From NCBI GenBank assembly GCA_904396155.1, contig CAJFOI010000030.1, positions 1 through 64,000 of the forward strand: 64,000 nucleotides of DNA. The letters run 5' to 3'. Shown here one piece after another: positions 3,008 through 60,642 of the stretch (its first letter is position 1; every line of letters starts with the position of its first letter). Below the pieces are notes generated by a model. The model had not been told where the DNA came from. It saw nothing but the letters and a program-made list of their open reading frames with translations, and made no database searches. The DNA is from Candidatus Avispirillum faecium (lineage in GTDB: Bacteria > Bacillota > Clostridia > Oscillospirales > CAG-272). Position numbers and translations under genes: made by a program.

Positions 3008-3043
3008 GGCTGACTGAATTGCAGCTTTTTGGGAGGCGACGCA

Positions 3044-3352
3044 ATATTTTATAAAAAGCCTCCCCTGTGCGGGGGCTGCACAGCAGACCCGGGGGTGGTG
3101 GCTTGCCGAAGGCAAGCCGGAAGGGTTGTAAAGGAAACAATCCCCCAGTCAGCTACGCTGACAGCCCCCTTTGCACAAGGGGGCCTTAAGAAAGAGCCTC
3201 CCCAGTGGAGGACTTACTACGCAAGTCCGGGGGTAATGGCGCAATATTTTTTATAAAAAGCCTCCCTACATGGGTGCCTAAATAAATATAAGCCTCCCCT
3301 TTTTCATAAAGGGGAGGTGGCTCGCCGTAGGCGAGACGGAGGGGTTGTCTTT
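3044..3352. repeat. Modular palindromic intergenic repeat cluster 2
   Basis: It contains a complete composite unit at about 3055-3190. The left arm starts AAGCCTCCCC and ends AGGGTTGT, with the inner stem GGCTTGCC/GGCAAGCC. The right arm starts ACAATCCCCC and ends GGGGGCCTT, with the inner stem GTCAGC/GCTGAC. Degenerate partial units (3195-3280) and a full hairpin module (3290-3350, inner stem CTCGCC/GGCGAG) follow. The cluster ends about 40 bases before the holA start. Confidence 0.85.
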
Positions 3353-5546: not shown

Positions 5547-7433
5547 ATGGAAGGAAAATTTTTGCCGGTCACGCCGGAAGAGGTCCGGGCCGCCGGACGG
5601 GACGTGCCGGATTTTGTATATGTGTGCGGGGATGCCTATGTGGATCACCCGTCTTTCGGCGCCGCCATCATCGGCCGCGTACTGGAGGCCGCCGGCTTTG
5701 TTGTGGCAATGCTGCCCCAGCCGGATTATAAAGGCTGCCAGGCGATGCAGACCTTCGGCCGTCCCCGGCTGGGCTTTTTGGTCTCCAGCGGGAATATCGA
5801 TTCCATGGTGTGCCATTACACTGCCGCAAAAAAGAAGCGCACCTCCGATTACTATTCCCCCGGCGGGAAGGCCGGCCTGCGTCCGGACCGGGCGGTGATC
5901 GTGTACTGCAACCGGATCCGGGAGGCGTATGGGGATGTGCCCATCATCATCGGCGGACTGGAGGCGTCCCTGCGCCGGTTTGCCCACTACGACTACTGGA
6001 ACAATCGGGTGCGCCGCAGTATTTTGGTGGACAGCCGGGCGGATATTCTCTCCTATGGGATGGGAGAAAAATCCATTCTGCGCATCGCCCAGCTGCTGGA
6101 CCGGGGCGTTCCCGTAAAGAAGATCCGGGACGTGCGGGGCACTGCGTATCTTTGCAAAAGCGGGGAGGAAATCCACTATCCCAAAGTGGAGGAGACCTAC
6201 GATTACGATCAGCTGAAAACGGACAAAGAGGCCTACGCCCGGGCCTTTGCCATCCAGTATAAAAACAACGACGCCATCAGCGGACGGGCCATCACGGAAT
6301 ACTACGGAGATCGGATGCTGGTACAGAATCCTCCTATGCCGCCTCTGGAGCGGGAGGAGCTGGATCGGGTGTATGCCCTGCCCTATATGCGGGCCGCTCA
6401 CCCCATGTACGACAAGGACGGCGGCGTCCCCGCCATATCCGAGGTGCGGTTTTCCATCACCCACAACCGGGGGTGCTTCGGCGGGTGCAATTTCTGCGCT
6501 CTGGCCTTCCATCAGGGACGGAGCGTGCGCAGCAGAAGCATCGAGAGCGTGGTCCGGGAGGCAAAGCTCATTGCCGCCATGCCGGACTTCAAGGGATATA
6601 TCCACGACGTGGGCGGTCCTACGGCGAATTTCCGCCACCCTTCCTGCCGGCAGCAGCTGGAGCGGGGCGTATGCCAGGGAAAGCGGTGCTTAGTGCCTAC
6701 GCCGTGTAAGCATTTGGACGCAGACCACAGCGAATACATAAAACTGCTCCAGGCGGTAGAAGCGGTGCCCGGCGTGAAAAAGGTGTTTATCCGCAGCGGG
6801 ATCCGGTTCGACTATATGCTCCAGGATAAAAACGACGCTTTTTTTGAAAAACTGGTGCGGGATCACGTCAGCGGGCAGCTGAAGGTGGCGCCGGAGCACT
6901 GTTCCCCCTATGTGCTGCAGTGTATGGGAAAGCCAGACATTGCGGTATACGACAAATTTAGACAAAAATTTTTCCGCCTTACGGAGAGGGTAGGGAAGGA
7001 GCAATATCTGGTGCCCTACCTTATGTCCAGCCACCCGGGGAGCCGATTGACCGATGCGGTGGAGCTGGCGCTGTACATCAAGCGCATCGGCCTGTCTCCC
7101 GAACAGGTGCAGGACTTTTATCCCACCCCGGGGACGGCCTCTACGGTGATGTATTATACGGGGGTCGATCCCCTGACGGGGAAAAAGGTATATACTGCCA
7201 CAGATTATAAGGAAAAGCAGATGCAGCGGGCACTGCTTCAGTACTGGCGACCGGAAAACCGGCGGCTGGTATTGGAGGCACTTCACCGGTGCGGCAGGGA
7301 GGACCTCATTGGTTGGGGCCCGGATTGCTTGATCCGCCCCAGCCGCAGCGCCGTCGGGAAGAAACCGGCCGGCGGAGGAACGAAGAAAGGCGCCCGCTCT
7401 GGGAACTCCCGCCGAAGGAGTCGAAGAAAATAA
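5547..7433 (+). CDS. YgiQ family radical SAM protein
   Basis: The 628-residue protein has the UPF0313/YgiQ architecture. The N-terminal domain contains FLPVTPEEVRAAG and DFVYVCGDAYVDHPSF. The radical SAM cluster motif CFGGCNFC (Cys near 310, 314, 317) binds the 4Fe-4S cluster. The C-terminus reads DFYPTPGT and ends in a basic tail rich in Lys/Arg/Gly. The molecular reaction is not established for the family. ATG 5547 with AAGGAA upstream is preferred over ATG 5520, which would add nine atypical residues. It closes the holA-Toprim-GtrA-YgiQ run. Confidence 0.9.
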   Translation: MEGKFLPVTPEEVRAAGRDVPDFVYVCGDAYVDHPSFGAAIIGRVLEAAGFVVAMLPQPDYKGCQAMQTFGRPRLGFLVSSGNIDSMVCHYTAAKKKRTSDYYSPGGKAGLRPDRAVIVYCNRIREAYGDVPIIIGGLEASLRRFAHYDYWNNRVRRSILVDSRADILSYGMGEKSILRIAQLLDRGVPVKKIRDVRGTAYLCKSGEEIHYPKVEETYDYDQLKTDKEAYARAFAIQYKNNDAISGRAITEYYGDRMLVQNPPMPPLEREELDRVYALPYMRAAHPMYDKDGGVPAISEVRFSITHNRGCFGGCNFCALAFHQGRSVRSRSIESVVREAKLIAAMPDFKGYIHDVGGPTANFRHPSCRQQLERGVCQGKRCLVPTPCKHLDADHSEYIKLLQAVEAVPGVKKVFIRSGIRFDYMLQDKNDAFFEKLVRDHVSGQLKVAPEHCSPYVLQCMGKPDIAVYDKFRQKFFRLTERVGKEQYLVPYLMSSHPGSRLTDAVELALYIKRIGLSPEQVQDFYPTPGTASTVMYYTGVDPLTGKKVYTATDYKEKQMQRALLQYWRPENRRLVLEALHRCGREDLIGWGPDCLIRPSRSAVGKKPAGGGTKKGARSGNSRRRSRRK

Positions 7434-7454
7434 GTCTGCCACGGGGGGTCTGCA

Positions 7455-7997
7455 CAAATCCAAGCCACCTCTGTATAAGGGGCCTTATTCCAATTTCTTT
7501 AGTCTCCCCTGCGTGGGGGGCTGCGCAGCAGACCCGAGGGTGGTGGCGCAGCATATTTTATAAAAAGCCTCCCCTGTGCAAGGGGAGGTGGCTCGCCGCA
7601 GGCGAGACGGAAGGGTTGTAAAGGGGACAATCCCCCACCCGCTGCGCGGGAGCCCCCTTTGCACAAGGGAGCCTAAATAAAATATAAGCCTCCCCTGTGT
7701 GGGGACTGCGAAGCAGACCCGAGGGTGGTGTCAGCAAAATTTACCACTAAACGAAGCCTCCCCTGTGCAAGGGGAGGTGTCAGCGTAGCTGACGGAGGGG
7801 TTGTTAAAGGGAACAATCCCTCACCCGCTTCGCGGGAGCTCCCTTTGCACAAGGGAGCCTAAATAAAATATAAGCCTCCCCTGGGGGGCTGCGCAGCAGA
7901 CCCGGGAGTGACGGCGCAGCGCAGTTATCATGAAATAAAGCCTCCCCTTTTTCATAAAGGGGAGGTGCCGCAACTGTGTTGTGGCGGAGGGGTTGTT
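7455..7997. repeat. Modular palindromic intergenic repeat cluster 3
   Basis: This is the densest cluster near a gene start, with at least seven modules. CTGCGCAGCAGACCC modules lie near 7502-7545, 7687-7730 and 7875-7915. GGGGAGG hairpins lie near 7565-7620, 7752-7802 and 7937-7996, with inner stems CTCGCC/GGCGAG, GTCAGC/GCTGAC and GCCGCAAC/GTTGTGGC. CCCGC/GCGGG modules ending AAGGGAGCCT lie near 7627-7674 and 7812-7862. It runs to within six bases of the sfsA ribosome binding site. Confidence 0.85.
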
Positions 7998-8690: not shown

Positions 8691-8704
8691 CGTTGTATAG
8701 GATA

Positions 8705-8746
8705 ATATATTATATATGTTACATATAAGTAACATATATAATATAT
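8705..8746. terminator. AT-only perfect inverted repeat between convergent genes
   Basis: There are two 18-base arms (8705-8722 and 8729-8746) with perfect pairing and a six-base AT loop. Apart from two G/C pairs near the loop end the stem is all A/T. Its position between the 3' ends of sfsA and the minus-strand DUF6514-like gene suggests a bidirectional terminator or insulator, although a GC-poor stem is atypical. Confidence 0.55.
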
Positions 8747-8774
8747 AAAATAATACAAGCTGCACCGGATCGGG

Positions 8775-12747: not shown

Positions 12748-12878
12748 ACGGCGCCTCCTTTGCCGGGCTTTTTCCTTTTTATCATTGTATCAAAAAACAA
12801 ATCTGTTTGCCACAAAAGGAGAAAAAGTTTACAGATAGATAAAAAACAAGAGATGTTCGTATAAATGGGTTTGTTTTA

Positions 12879-13157
12879 ACAACCCCTCCGTCAGCTACGC
12901 TGCCACCTCCCCTTCACGAGGAAGGGGAGGCTTTATTTAATGTAGCTACGCTGCCACCACCCCAGCATCTCCTTCGGAGTTGCACTGCAGGTGAGGCTTA
13001 AATTGAGGCAATGCTCCATATGGAGAGGCATAAAAAAAGCCCCCTTGTGGGGAGGCATAAGCAAAGAGGCTCCCCTGTGGGGATGTGGGGGCGTAAGAAA
13101 AAGCCCCCCTTGCGTAAAGGGGGGTGTCGACGCAGTCGACGGGGGGGGATTGTCGTT
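12879..13157. repeat. Modular palindromic intergenic repeat cluster 4
   Basis: In minus orientation this is an ACAACCCCTCCGTCAGCTACGCTG hairpin module ending GGGGAGGCTTTA (12879-12940). A degenerate unit follows (CACCACCCCAGCATCTCC, 12953-13005), then shortened GCCCCCTTGTGGGGAGGC pieces, and a module with the inner stem GTCGAC/GTCGAC ending GGGGGATTGTCG near 13155. It separates the divergent CotH gene and the 3' end of the ABC-F gene. Confidence 0.8.
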
Positions 13158-19522: not shown

Positions 19523-19803
19523 GCCCAACCCCTCCGTCAACGAAGTTGACACCTCCCCTTCACAAGGAAGGGGAGGCTTTATATTTATTTAGGCTCCCTT
19601 GTGTAAAGGGAGCTCCCGCGCAGCGGGTGAGGGATTGTCTCTTCTACGTTATTTACAACCCCTCCGTCACGGCTACGCCGTGCCACCACCCCCGGGTCTG
19701 CTGCGCAGCCCCCGCACAGGGGAGGCTAAAATGATAAAAGGCCCCCATGTGGGGAGTTGCAAAGCAACTCCGGGGGCATCCCGCGTTAGCGGGTGGGGGA
19801 TTG
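19523..19803. repeat. Modular palindromic intergenic repeat cluster 5
   Basis: The modules are mostly in minus orientation. One hairpin has the inner stem GTCAAC/GTTGAC (19523-19580). One is AGGCTCCCTTGTGTAAAGGGAGCTCCCGCGCAGCGGG (19590-19640). One is ACAACCCCTCCGTCACGGCTACGCCGTG plus CTGCTGCGCAGCCCCCG (19658-19730). The last resembles GCCCCCATGTGGGGAGTTGCAAAGCAACTCC (19740-19775) and ends in CCCGCGTTAGCGGGTGGGGGATTGTT. It sits between two divergent transcription units. Confidence 0.85.
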
Positions 19804-19934
19804 TTTCTCCTGTATATGGTGTTTTTTTCTTTTCTTTCCACAAGATGCATATTTATTCGTTAAATTGCACAAAATATGACTGTAAATTTCTCCAAAATTT
19901 TCTCGAAAAATTTTTGGAAAATCTTCCGCATCCG

Positions 19935-37404: not shown

Positions 37405-37990
37405 GGGAACAACCCCTCCCCCGCAACAGAGTTGTGCTACCACCCCGGGTCTGCTACGCAGCCCCCGCGAAGGGGAGGCTTAAAATAGAAGTCCCCCTTG
37501 TGCAAAGGGGGAAGTCAACGAAGTTGACAGGGGGATTGTTCCGTTTTACAACCCCTCCGAGTTTTGCTTCGCAAAACCCACCTCCCCTTACACAGGGGAG
37601 GCTTTTATGAAGGTCTGCTACGCAGCCCCCGCGAAGGGGAGGCTTGGGTTTGTATAGGGCTCCCTTGTGCAAAGGGAGCTGGCTCCGCGCAAGCGGAGTC
37701 TGAGGGATTGTTCTCTTTTACGTTATTTACAACCCCTCCGAGTTTTGCTTCGCAAAACCCACCTCCCCTTACACAGGGGAGGCTTTTATAAAGGTCTGCT
37801 GTGCAGCCCCTACGAAGGGGAGGCTTAAAATAGAAGTCCCCCTTGTGCAAAGGGGGATGTCAACGAAGTTGACAGGGGGATTGTTCCGTTTTGCAACCCC
37901 TCCGACACGGCTGCGCCGTGCCACCTCCCCTTACACAGGGGAGGCTTTTATAAAGGTCTGCTGCGCAGCCCCACACAAGGGAGGCCTAAG
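37405..37990. repeat. Modular palindromic intergenic repeat cluster 6, internally duplicated
   Basis: This is the longest cluster and consists of modules in minus orientation. The segment starting CAACCCCTCCGAGTTTTGC occurs at 37549 and again at 37730, nearly identical for about 65 bases. The segment TAAAATAGAAGTCCCCCTTG occurs at 37481 and 37826. Inner stems include GTTTTGC/GCAAAAC, GTCAACG/GTTGAC and CACGGC/GCCGTG. It looks like copies added by duplication within the cluster. Confidence 0.85.
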
Positions 37991-55802: not shown

Positions 55803-57587
55803 ATGAAGAAACTCAAAAACAACTGGTACATGATTCGCTTTGTTTTGCGGTATGCCCCCGGCATGTTTATCCTGAAAATCATAAGCACGCTTACCTCCCT
55901 TGCAGTCAATATAGGATGCAATGTCTTTTTCTTAAAAACGGTTGTGGATGCTATGGAATACGGCGGAGATTTCCAAAAGATTTTGCTTTTTATTGCAGCC
56001 ATCGGCGCACTCATTATATTTGATGGCATTTTGACAAGTATATACCAGGAAAGAATCAGCCCCAAGGGCACGCTGAAAATACATAAGGGGATGCACAATC
56101 AAATATTTGATAAAATCAAACATGTAGAGCTGGAAAACTTTGACGATTCCGACTTCTATAACAGCTATATTCTGGCGATCAACGAGGCGGACAACTGTGC
56201 GCTGCGCTCCTTCAATGTCGTTACTTCCCTTATATCCAACATACTTGCCGCGCTGTCCTTTTCCAGCATTGCCATATTTTACGATCCCATGCTGCTGGTA
56301 TTTTCCATTGTGCCGGTCGTTGCAACGACTTTTTTCGGGATTTGGCAAAGCCATATTTCTGTAGCCAAAAGAGAAGAAAGCATTTACCCCGAAAGAAAGG
56401 GCGACTATTCGAAGCGGGTGTTCTATCTGCAGCAGTATGCAAAGGAGCTGCGCCTCTATCCTTCCATGAACAAAAAGGTTGTGGACGAATTCAATGATTC
56501 TGTCCAGGACAGGGCCCATATCATCGATAAATACAGCTTCAAAATGACGGTGATCAGTTTTTTATGCAGTCATTTTCAGGTCATCTTCTGTGTCTTATGT
56601 ATGTCCATATACATTTCCTGGCGTGTGATCGTGCAGGGATCCCTTTCCGCCGGCGTCTTTGTGGCGATGTTTACAGCCGTAAACAACTTCACCTATTCCG
56701 TCGGCGCTATATTTAATTCCATCCCCCAGATAACGGAAAATGGGCTGTACGCGGAAAGGGTACGGAAGATTCTGGATTACCGGAGCAAAATGGAAAATCC
56801 CGATGCAGTGCCTGTGGAACCGGAAGCGTTTTTAGCGTCCTTCCGTGAAATCGAGCTGAGAAATGTCAGCTTCAGGTATCCAGGCAGCGATACATTCGTG
56901 CTCCGGAATATCAATCTGAAAATCCATGACGGAGAGCGGATCGCACTGGTAGGATTTAACGGAGCGGGCAAGTCCACCCTGGTCAAGCTGATCATGCGGC
57001 TGTACGACCCCACGGAGGGGGAGATCCGGATCAACGGAGTCAATATAAAGGAAATCGATGTAAAAACCTATCGGAAGCTGTTCCAGGTGGTGTTTCAGGA
57101 CTTCCAGCTTTACGCCTTCTCGCTGGGGTCCAACATCATGATGCGGGATCCGGTGCCCGGCGACGATCGTGTCATCGACGATGCGCTGGACAAAAGTCAT
57201 CTGTCGGATTTCAAAGACCTGAAAGAAAAAAACCTCACCCGAGAATTCGATAAGGACGGGCTGATCCCCTCCGGCGGGCAGTCCCAGAAAATCGCCATTG
57301 CCAGGGCCCTGGCCGCAAACAACGGACGGCTGGTGGTGATGGACGAGGCCTCCAGCGCCCTGGACCCGGTTTCGGAGTACAATATCAACAAGTCCATTTT
57401 CGACAACACGGCAGGCAAGAGCATGATCATCATCTCCCACAGGCTGTCAACGGTTCAATATGCCGATAAAATTTACTATTTGAACGAGGGCAGGATCACA
57501 GAATCCGGCACCCATGGGGAGCTGATCGGACAGCGGGGGGACTACTGCGCCATGTACGAAAAGCAGGCGGAAAGCTATCGGTTGTAA
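55803..57587 (+). CDS. ABC transporter, fused permease and ATP-binding protein (exporter type)
   Basis: The 594-residue half-transporter has about six membrane helices in residues 10-310 and an ATPase domain (about 340-575). The domain has Walker A GFNGAGKST (near 383), the signature PSGGQSQKIAIARAL (a changed LSGGQ), Walker B RLVVMDEASSALDP and the switch His in IISHRLSTV. It probably works as a homodimer; the cargo is unknown. ATG 55803 follows AAAGGAG. The upstream open frame is AT-rich noncoding DNA. Confidence 0.9.
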   Translation: MKKLKNNWYMIRFVLRYAPGMFILKIISTLTSLAVNIGCNVFFLKTVVDAMEYGGDFQKILLFIAAIGALIIFDGILTSIYQERISPKGTLKIHKGMHNQIFDKIKHVELENFDDSDFYNSYILAINEADNCALRSFNVVTSLISNILAALSFSSIAIFYDPMLLVFSIVPVVATTFFGIWQSHISVAKREESIYPERKGDYSKRVFYLQQYAKELRLYPSMNKKVVDEFNDSVQDRAHIIDKYSFKMTVISFLCSHFQVIFCVLCMSIYISWRVIVQGSLSAGVFVAMFTAVNNFTYSVGAIFNSIPQITENGLYAERVRKILDYRSKMENPDAVPVEPEAFLASFREIELRNVSFRYPGSDTFVLRNINLKIHDGERIALVGFNGAGKSTLVKLIMRLYDPTEGEIRINGVNIKEIDVKTYRKLFQVVFQDFQLYAFSLGSNIMMRDPVPGDDRVIDDALDKSHLSDFKDLKEKNLTREFDKDGLIPSGGQSQKIAIARALAANNGRLVVMDEASSALDPVSEYNINKSIFDNTAGKSMIIISHRLSTVQYADKIYYLNEGRITESGTHGELIGQRGDYCAMYEKQAESYRL

Positions 57588-57937
57588 GTGACAATCCCCC
57601 TGTCGACTGCGTCGACACCCCCCTTTGCACAAGGGGGGGCAATCTAATATAAGCTTCCCCTTCGTGGGGGCTGCGCAGCAGACCCGGGGGTGGTGGCGCA
57701 ATATCTTTATAAAAGCCTCCCCTGTGTAAGGGGAGGTGGCGGCTTTGCCGCCGGAGGGGTTGTAAAGGGAGAACAATCCCCCTGTCAACTTCGTTGACAT
57801 CCCCCTTTGCACAAGGGGGACTTCTAAATTTTGACCTCCCCACAAGGGAGCCTCTAACACCAAGCCTCCCCAGTACGGGGGCTGCGCAGCAGACCCGGGG
57901 GTGGTGGCACGGCGTAGCCGTGACGGTGGGGTTGTTA
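57588..57937. repeat. Modular palindromic intergenic repeat cluster 7
   Basis: It starts on the exporter stop codon: ACAATCCCCCTGTCGACTGCGTCGAC...AAGGGGGG. A CTGCGCAGCAGACCC module (57654-57700), a GGGGAGG hairpin with inner GGCGGCTTTGCCGCC (57713-57765), another GTCAAC/GTTGAC module (57773-57825) and a further CTGCGCAGCAGACCC module ending with CACGGCGTAGCCGTG (57863-57937) follow. Confidence 0.85.
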
Positions 57938-60159: not shown

Positions 60160-60168
60160 TATTTAGTA

Positions 60169-60642
60169 GACAATCCCCCTGTCAACTACGCTGACAATCC
60201 CGCGGAGTTGCTTGGCAACTCCCCACAAGGGGTCTTTCTATCATTTTAGCCTCCCCTGTGTAAGGGGAGGTGTCAGCGAAGCTGACGAAGGGGTTGTAAT
60301 CAGTTAAACAATTCCCCAGCCGGCAAAGCCGGCAGCCCCCTTTACACAAGGGGGCCTAGGCAACCCCAGCCTCCCCTGTGCGGGGGCTGCGCAGCAGACC
60401 CTGGGGTGATGGCGCAATTTTTTATAAAAGCCTCCCCTTCCTCGTGAAGGGGAGGTGGGTTTTGCGAAGCAAAACTCGGAAGGGTTGTAAAAAGACAATC
60501 CCTCACCCGCTGCGCGGGAGCTCCCTTAGCGGCTCTGCAAGAGACGCCCACATGGGAGCCTTTTATCTTACGCCTCCCCTTCGTAGGGGCTGCGCAGCAG
60601 ACCCTGGGGTGGTGTCGGCGAAGCTGACGGAGGGGTTGTAAA
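60169..60642. repeat. Modular palindromic intergenic repeat cluster 8
   Basis: The modules are ACAATCCCCCTGTCAACTACGCTGAC (60169-60240, partly degenerate with GGAGTTGCTTGGCAACTCC), a GGGGAGG hairpin with GTCAGC/GCTGAC (60245-60297), an AATTCCCCAGCCGGCAAAGCCGGC module (60308-60357), a CTGCGCAGCAGACCC module (60368-60415), a hairpin with GTTTTGC/GCAAAAC (60428-60490), a CCCGC/GCGGG module (60497-60560) and a final CTGCGCAGCAGACCC module ending in GGAGGGGTTGT (60572-60642). Confidence 0.85.

Follow-up and report, generated by a model that had tools for sequence, protein, structure and literature searches.

Intergenic repeats of Candidatus Avispirillum faecium resemble bacterial intrastrand-triplex repeats with a covarying hairpin in place of loop 2

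In the 64,000 nt of Candidatus Avispirillum faecium DNA analysed here (contig CAJFOI010000030.1, referred to as the window), the region 7455-7997 carries hairpin-forming repeats between two genes which we take, from their sequence, to be a radical-SAM gene and sfsA. The inner stems of these repeats differ between copies and still pair, and the locus raises the question of which form of the repeats is maintained in this way and whether such a family has been described before. According to the original prediction the folded form, be it RNA or single-stranded DNA, is selected or copied.

The repeats occupy positions 7501-7996 and comprise five complete units (7566-7996), which alternate in orientation, and three truncated units. 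A complete unit consists of hairpin 1, formed by a pyrimidine (Y) arm and a purine (R) arm, an inner stem (stem 2) and a purine tail ending in TTGT, which is termed the third strand in the following. Unit 1 (type A, 7566-7619, plus strand) has its Y arm at 7568-7575, a loop at 7576-7580 and its R arm at 7581-7588, followed by the inner stem CTCGCC/GGCGAG (7592-7597/7601-7606, loop GCA) and the third strand with TTGT at 7609-7619 (DNA fold z -4.1). The spacer AAAGGGG (7620-7626) separates it head-to-head from Unit 2 (7627-7675, minus strand), with the third strand at 7627-7637, the inner stem CCCGC/GCGGG at 7638-7650 and hairpin 1 at 7652-7672. Unit 3 (type A, 7754-7804, plus strand) is the textbook example. 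Its Y arm (7757-7764), loop (7765-7769) and R arm (7770-7777) precede the inner stem GTCAGC/GCTGAC (7779-7784/7788-7793, loop GTA) and the third strand with TTGT (7794-7804; DNA fold z -5.1). The head-to-head spacer TAAAGGGA (7805-7812) leads to Unit 4 (type C, 7813-7861, minus strand) with the third strand GAGGGATTGT, the inner stem CCCGC/GCGGG with loop GAA and hairpin 1 GCTCCCTT/AAGGGAGC (DNA fold z -4.6). Unit 5 (type A, 7940-7996, plus strand) exhibits a longer hairpin-1 apex, TTTTTCATAAA, the inner stem CCGCAAC/GTTGTGG and the third strand GGAGGGGTTGT (DNA fold z -5.7).

The three truncated units (7501-7552, 7686-7735 and 7872-7920, all plus strand) lack the tail. The first of them stops after the 5' half of stem 2 and carries the additional hairpin GGGGGGCTGCGCAGCAGACCCG at the apex of hairpin 1; the apex hairpin GGGGGCTGCGCAGCAGACCCG and its relatives represent the extra insert of all three. 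Several alternative apex modules of hairpin 1 recur across the genome, as if they were swapped as cassettes. Judged by eye and without counts, the arrays appear nested, with intact dimers flanked by units that are truncated inside stem 2. A repeat search revealed seven additional clusters of units in the window, located at 22-155, 3031-3348, 12878-13153, 19526-19804, 37406-37990, 57586-57935 and 60165-60639. Directly adjoining one repeat cluster is an S10-Clostridia ribosomal protein leader (Rfam RF03136, 19973-20061). A long A/T-rich palindrome, ATATATTATATATGTTAC...GTAACATATATAATATAT, which is found right after the sfsA stop codon (8698-8755), is unrelated to the repeats.

To assess the pairing, units were picked by their outer blocks alone, so that pairing of the inner stretch was not required, and a score of at least 5 was taken as a stem. 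Within ~370 kb of the own genome 90% of the 87 distinct inner stretches form a stem, compared to a mean of 38% and a maximum of 51% when the halves were re-dealt among units. In an independent set drawn from other genomes the corresponding values are 88% and 33%. In the well-populated inner lengths of the own genome and of other genomes the proportion of paired cells reaches 92-96% as against 72-82% after re-dealing; due to the common ancestry of the units these cells are not independent, but the combinations of arm letters are nonetheless reshuffled among types. Two-sided changes at these lengths amount to 18 and 65, which is above all 300 re-deals (6 and 18). The window alone provides samples of 6 and 6 distinct stretches, which are too small and merely equal the re-dealt maximum, hence the proof of covariation rests on the genome and not on the window. 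In a curated alignment of 24 sequences, which had been pre-filtered for pairing, 8 of 14 pairs show changes on both sides and none shows a one-sided change. The inner stems thus differ and pair, as had been predicted. The outer blocks, which were thought to be almost fixed, turned out to change as well. They fall into at least eight types in which both arms change together, including A (CCTCCCCT/AGGGGAGG), B (TCCCCCTT/AAGGGGGA) and C (GCTCCCTT/AAGGGAGC).

A feature that had been overlooked at first is the purine tail 3' of the inner stem, which repeats the purine arm of hairpin 1 in mirror image. The tails GGAGGGGTTGT, GAGGGATTGT and GGGGGATTGT mirror the purine arms AGGGGAGG, AAGGGAGC and AAGGGGGA, respectively. 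For an evaluation that does not presuppose a tail, all sites of two adjoining perfect hairpins were collected and the sequence following them was examined. The mirror match is 5.38 of 8 positions compared to 4.49 when tails were re-dealt between distinct types (sd 0.07, z ~13; no shuffle above 4.66). Moreover, the tail follows A/G switches of the arm at two variable positions, at one of them in 146/146 and 29/39 cases (Fisher 1e-25) and at the other in 178/185 (Fisher 1e-40). The remaining 10 of the 39 cases at the former position have an A opposite G in the third strand, counter to the mirror rule. The rule holds in at least eight arm types, among them AAAGGAGG/GGAGGAAT and GGGAGAGC/TGAGAGGG, and is also obeyed by the rare type GAGGGAGC with the tail TGAGGGAG.

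In a table of the resulting triplets, the third strand has G at 2050 of 2134 positions with a G in the arm (96%), A or T at 973 of 996 with an A (98%) and T at 185 of 197 with a C (94%). These percentages are somewhat inflated as the best offset per unit was used and only units with at least 5 of 8 matches were included; the re-dealt comparison serves as the control. Triplets of the purine motif are G.G-C, A.A-T and T.A-T, with the third strand running antiparallel to the purine strand. The observed reading of bases is this code, and the strand direction fits its requirement. When the window was scanned with 7-bp stems and no mismatch, 20 perfect class II motifs with a loop 2 of 12-30 nt were found and none in shuffled sequences, whereas class II motifs with a loop 2 of 1-6 nt do not occur. 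Pairing of the tail and the pyrimidine arm by Watson-Crick rules was rejected as a cause, since its excess (3.91 versus 3.39 re-dealt, sd 0.09) is smaller than the mirror excess and since the offset it needs is not the same in types A, B and C. A G-quadruplex was discarded likewise: it does not require the matching of A/G switches, and in types with two G runs there are not enough tracts for one.

The original prediction that no family of this design is described is not supported. Intrastrand triplex repeats have been known in bacteria since 2000, and the architecture is that of the class II repeats BoxC/PIT/TM (Hoyne and Maher 2000; Holder et al. 2015, PMC4666352), with loop 2 swapped for a covarying hairpin. 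Both have a Y arm, a short loop, an R arm, a further loop and a mirror R third strand on a single strand, use the code G.G-C, A.A-T, T.A-T (PMC4666352) and occur as intergenic, multi-copy elements, often as head-to-head pairs of two different types. Read directly, one E. coli pair has the unit CCCTCTCCC TGTG GGGAGAGGG CCG GGGTGAGGG, with the G run shared with the loop and the first unit facing a second one of the other type. Oligonucleotides of E. coli BoxC/PIT fold into a triplex in vitro according to NMR and CD, while footprinting in vivo in E. coli did not show a stable triplex (PMC4666352). The units described here form a hairpin of Y and R arm of at least 6 bp with a short loop and carry a 3' third strand in mirror register according to the purine-motif code. 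They differ from BoxC/PIT in that loop 2 is a covarying hairpin of 13-24 nt instead of 3 nt (TTA or CCG) as in E. coli, in the TTGT at the end of the tail and in their hosts, Clostridia and Sphingomonas, which are absent from the main text of PMC4666352. Published searches limited loop 2 to 1-6 nt (ITxF) or 0-10 nt (Hoyne; PMC4666352). The loop 2 of our units lies beyond both limits, and because it is a hairpin these searches could not see the family. By the published loop criterion the units are therefore outside class II, yet judging from their sequence they would work like members. Apparently they represent an undescribed variant of the bacterial intrastrand-triplex repeats. A literature search by unit sequence strings yielded no paper on such repeats among the matches listed, a search on REPs in gut Firmicutes nothing relevant, and the accessible literature on intrastrand triplex repeats no evidence of a third strand conserved as structure.

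Other palindromic repeats share part of these features. Like REPINs (Bertels and Rainey 2011, PMC3116915), the units are intergenic, vary in copy number between relatives and form inverted doublets with a conserved spacer, which appear to be the replicating unit. Unlike REPINs they have a third strand and a mosaic nesting of truncated units, and their high-copy genomes lack a RAYT. A conserved GTAG flank, the tag beside the palindrome of REPs, is not present in the unit sequences examined. CGTC-tagged REPs (Di Nocera et al. 2013, PMC3733652) are reminiscent of the opposite strand of type A units, where CGTC adjoins the palindrome, and they too have no dedicated transposase and occur mostly as head-head dimers. 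Those REPs, common in Alphaproteobacteria and not reported from Firmicutes (PMC3733652), are however defined by an unpaired CGTC and a stem of 8-9 bp starting with A-T pairs. In our units the GAC of the motif lies within the stem and an A-T start is not seen, which places them outside that group.

With a structural model, the repeats were detected in 81 of the 118 genomes from the taxonomic family of the host and in one other family of the order, with only weak matches elsewhere in a 299-genome sample of the phylum. The same architecture was detected by sequence search in Sphingomonas plasmids, in Vescimonas fastidiosa (Oscillospiraceae) and in phage contigs of the human gut, and by pattern searches in viral contigs. 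A pattern scan of named genome contigs hit five contigs, all of them Clostridia MAGs, but says little about the range as its inner gaps were one base too long per side.

Counting copies per genome, as had been proposed, gives 88 BLAST matches and, with structural model R1, at least 150 copies in the own genome (1.95 Mb, 85% complete). Within the genus, G008 (97% complete) has no copy and G426 (61% complete) has 1, and four genomes reach at least 150. The gap between the radical-SAM gene and sfsA is short and without repeats in G008 and contains a different, decayed array in G076. In the same manner the gap of the cluster at 19526-19804 is shorter and free of units in G008, and that of 37406-37990 measures 701 nt here versus 91 nt in G008. 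Altogether there are dozens of orthologous gaps that contain units and span 300-400 nt in one genome, while the counterpart in another genome is free of units and measures 10-60 nt. The phage contig pairs L077/L099 and L103/L124 also provide filled and empty versions, too diverged for exact ends. Units form inverted, head-to-head heterodimers with a conserved spacer, whose length peaks at 8 nt in G000 and at 44-45 nt in G427, G428 and G429. Spacer length is thus specific to the lineage, which would fit copying of the entire dimer. Spacers of ~16 nt with TCGA at their centre separate head-to-head units in L074 and L075 (Sphingomonas) and in L101 (viral). The viral contig L134 (IMGVR 3300032167_004945) contains near-identical unit pairs in tandem every ~208 nt (7210-7920); further units lie between its phage structural genes at 1.5-3 kb and in a single orientation.

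With respect to RNA or DNA, the original prediction of a conserved or copied fold is supported, and between the two nucleic acids the evidence favours folded DNA on account of scarce G-T pairs, loops of DNA type and the covarying purine-motif third strand. G-T pairs contribute 4% of the inner-stem pairs in the own genome and 0.4% in others, compared to 14% and 7% in re-dealt halves. The closing pair is C-G in 181 of 200 distinct inner stems. Loops of three nt mostly read GNA (89 of 138) and those of four nt GNNA or GNAB (46 of 56); GNYA (23) is more frequent than the RNA-type GNRA (14), and UNCG does not occur at all. In DNA, exceptional stability is a property of the loops C(GNA)G, C(GNNA)G and C(GNAB)G, and papers mention the GCGAAGC mini-hairpin together with the term 'extraordinarily stable'.

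It is highly improbable, then, that the units are RNA elements, i.e. 3'-UTR structures, terminators or small RNAs under selection for secondary structure. They are indeed intergenic with stable predicted folds (computed as DNA, although pairing in RNA would be alike), and Di Nocera et al. took G-T pairs in other REPs to indicate an RNA function (PMC3733652). Here, however, G-U pairs are very few and the loops obey stability rules of DNA and not of RNA, while RNA reportedly does not form triplexes of the purine motif (PMC4666352). Furthermore, the hairpins have no T-run 3' of them, convergent-gene gaps harbour 27% of the units and make up 27% of all gaps, and orientation is balanced since the units face each other. 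An Rfam search of the window gave no match for the repeats, the only matches being one tRNA and the S10 leader. An intrinsic terminator or other RNA element is hence unsupported by Rfam, loop types and gap orientation. A further objection is that pairing of the inner stem by itself does not prove selection, because quasi-palindrome template switching at replication forks, which copies one hairpin arm into the other, could also maintain it, and the fold would then have no function. The near absence of one-sided intermediates in the curated alignment and the rare G-T pairs are expected if both arms change in one step, and the stems end in very stable hairpins. Watson-Crick copying gives inverted or direct repeats but never mirror repeats, and for that reason template switching cannot make the third strand, whose tail covaries with about equal strength. 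As it also leaves the spread and the head-to-head dimers unexplained, we regard purely mutational covariation as unlikely.

Two further proposals concern the way in which the units move. Classical DDE-type MITEs would insert the arrays as elements of ~300 bp with terminal inverted repeats and target duplications. One array in G428 (L167, 18420-18562, compared with L171 and L079) fits this well: it is flanked twice by the 9-bp sequence AAAAAATGA, which is single copy in G427 and G008, and its ends, GGGGTAGCAGA ... TGTGCTATCCC, form a short inverted repeat. This is the sole clear target duplication seen. Direct repeats at the edges of 133-137 arrays are no more common than in re-dealt flanks, and other pairs with an empty site lack a duplication, though they are too diverged to exclude one. 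MITEs of this kind are a quite unlikely source. The other proposal, according to which the units are ordinary REPs or REPINs that a RAYT (Y1 transposase) moves in trans, recognising the inner stem as its hairpin while the third strand plays no part, matches the intergenic, high-copy, head-to-head doublets with conserved spacer (PMC3116915), and RAYT-like genes of ~170 aa do exist elsewhere in the family. The original prediction had suggested searching for such a RAYT/IS200-like mobiliser, and none was found in the own genome or in any high-copy genome of the genus. Pfam Y1_Tnp was applied to the own genome and the 118 family genomes, and then a RAYT-specific profile to 17 genomes of the genus. 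Y1_Tnp is missing in G000, G008 and G076, and across the 118 genomes the presence of Y1 and of repeats is not associated (Fisher p 0.3 for any and 1.0 for strong Y1). The RAYT profile matches 7 of the 17 genomes, all of low copy number (1-29 units), and 0 of the 6 with at least 110 copies. With a completeness of 64-95% in these six, it is unlikely that incompleteness explains a shared absence of the gene. Units lie near only one of the 20 RAYT loci inspected. The RAYT-like genes (L161-L166, genomes G417-G423) are thus confined to low-copy members of the genus, the opposite of what is expected for mobilisation by RAYT. Since the mirror tail is left unexplained as well, a RAYT-mobilised REP is very unlikely, and for this genus the idea is largely refuted.

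Taken together, we consider it probable that the units are class II (Y-R-R') intrastrand-triplex repeats of ~50 nt which spread mainly as head-to-head heterodimers by an agent other than a RAYT or IS200 transposase. On single-stranded DNA the pyrimidine arm would pair with the purine arm to give hairpin 1. The chain would then turn via the second, sequence-variable hairpin, and the purine tail, with TTGT at its end, would return antiparallel along the purine arm to form a reverse-Hoogsteen third strand. The triplex may form in the cell, and the folded DNA may be the form that is recognised or copied, probably when single strands are exposed during replication or transfer. Part of the perfection of the inner stems could be due to hairpin-templated correction. 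Units would spread within the genome and into phages mainly as REPIN-like head-to-head heterodimers, nested and truncated in intergenic arrays. A farther-reaching reading holds that single-stranded DNA folded into hairpin and triplex is the very form that replicates and is recognised in a mobile family of Clostridia, Alphaproteobacteria and phages, a family which moves as head-to-head dimers by host or phage machinery other than RAYT/IS200. This we put forward tentatively, as possible but doubtful.

If true, it would be a mobile DNA whose substrate is an intramolecular triplex. A third strand that changes in step with its duplex in at least eight sequence types is the result we expect to surprise a specialist. 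That Sphingomonas and gut phages share the design suggests a class that is widespread and unnamed, with which horizontal spread and convergence are both compatible. Several genomes with at least 150 copies next to one with none in the same genus constitute a natural system for finding the copying agent.
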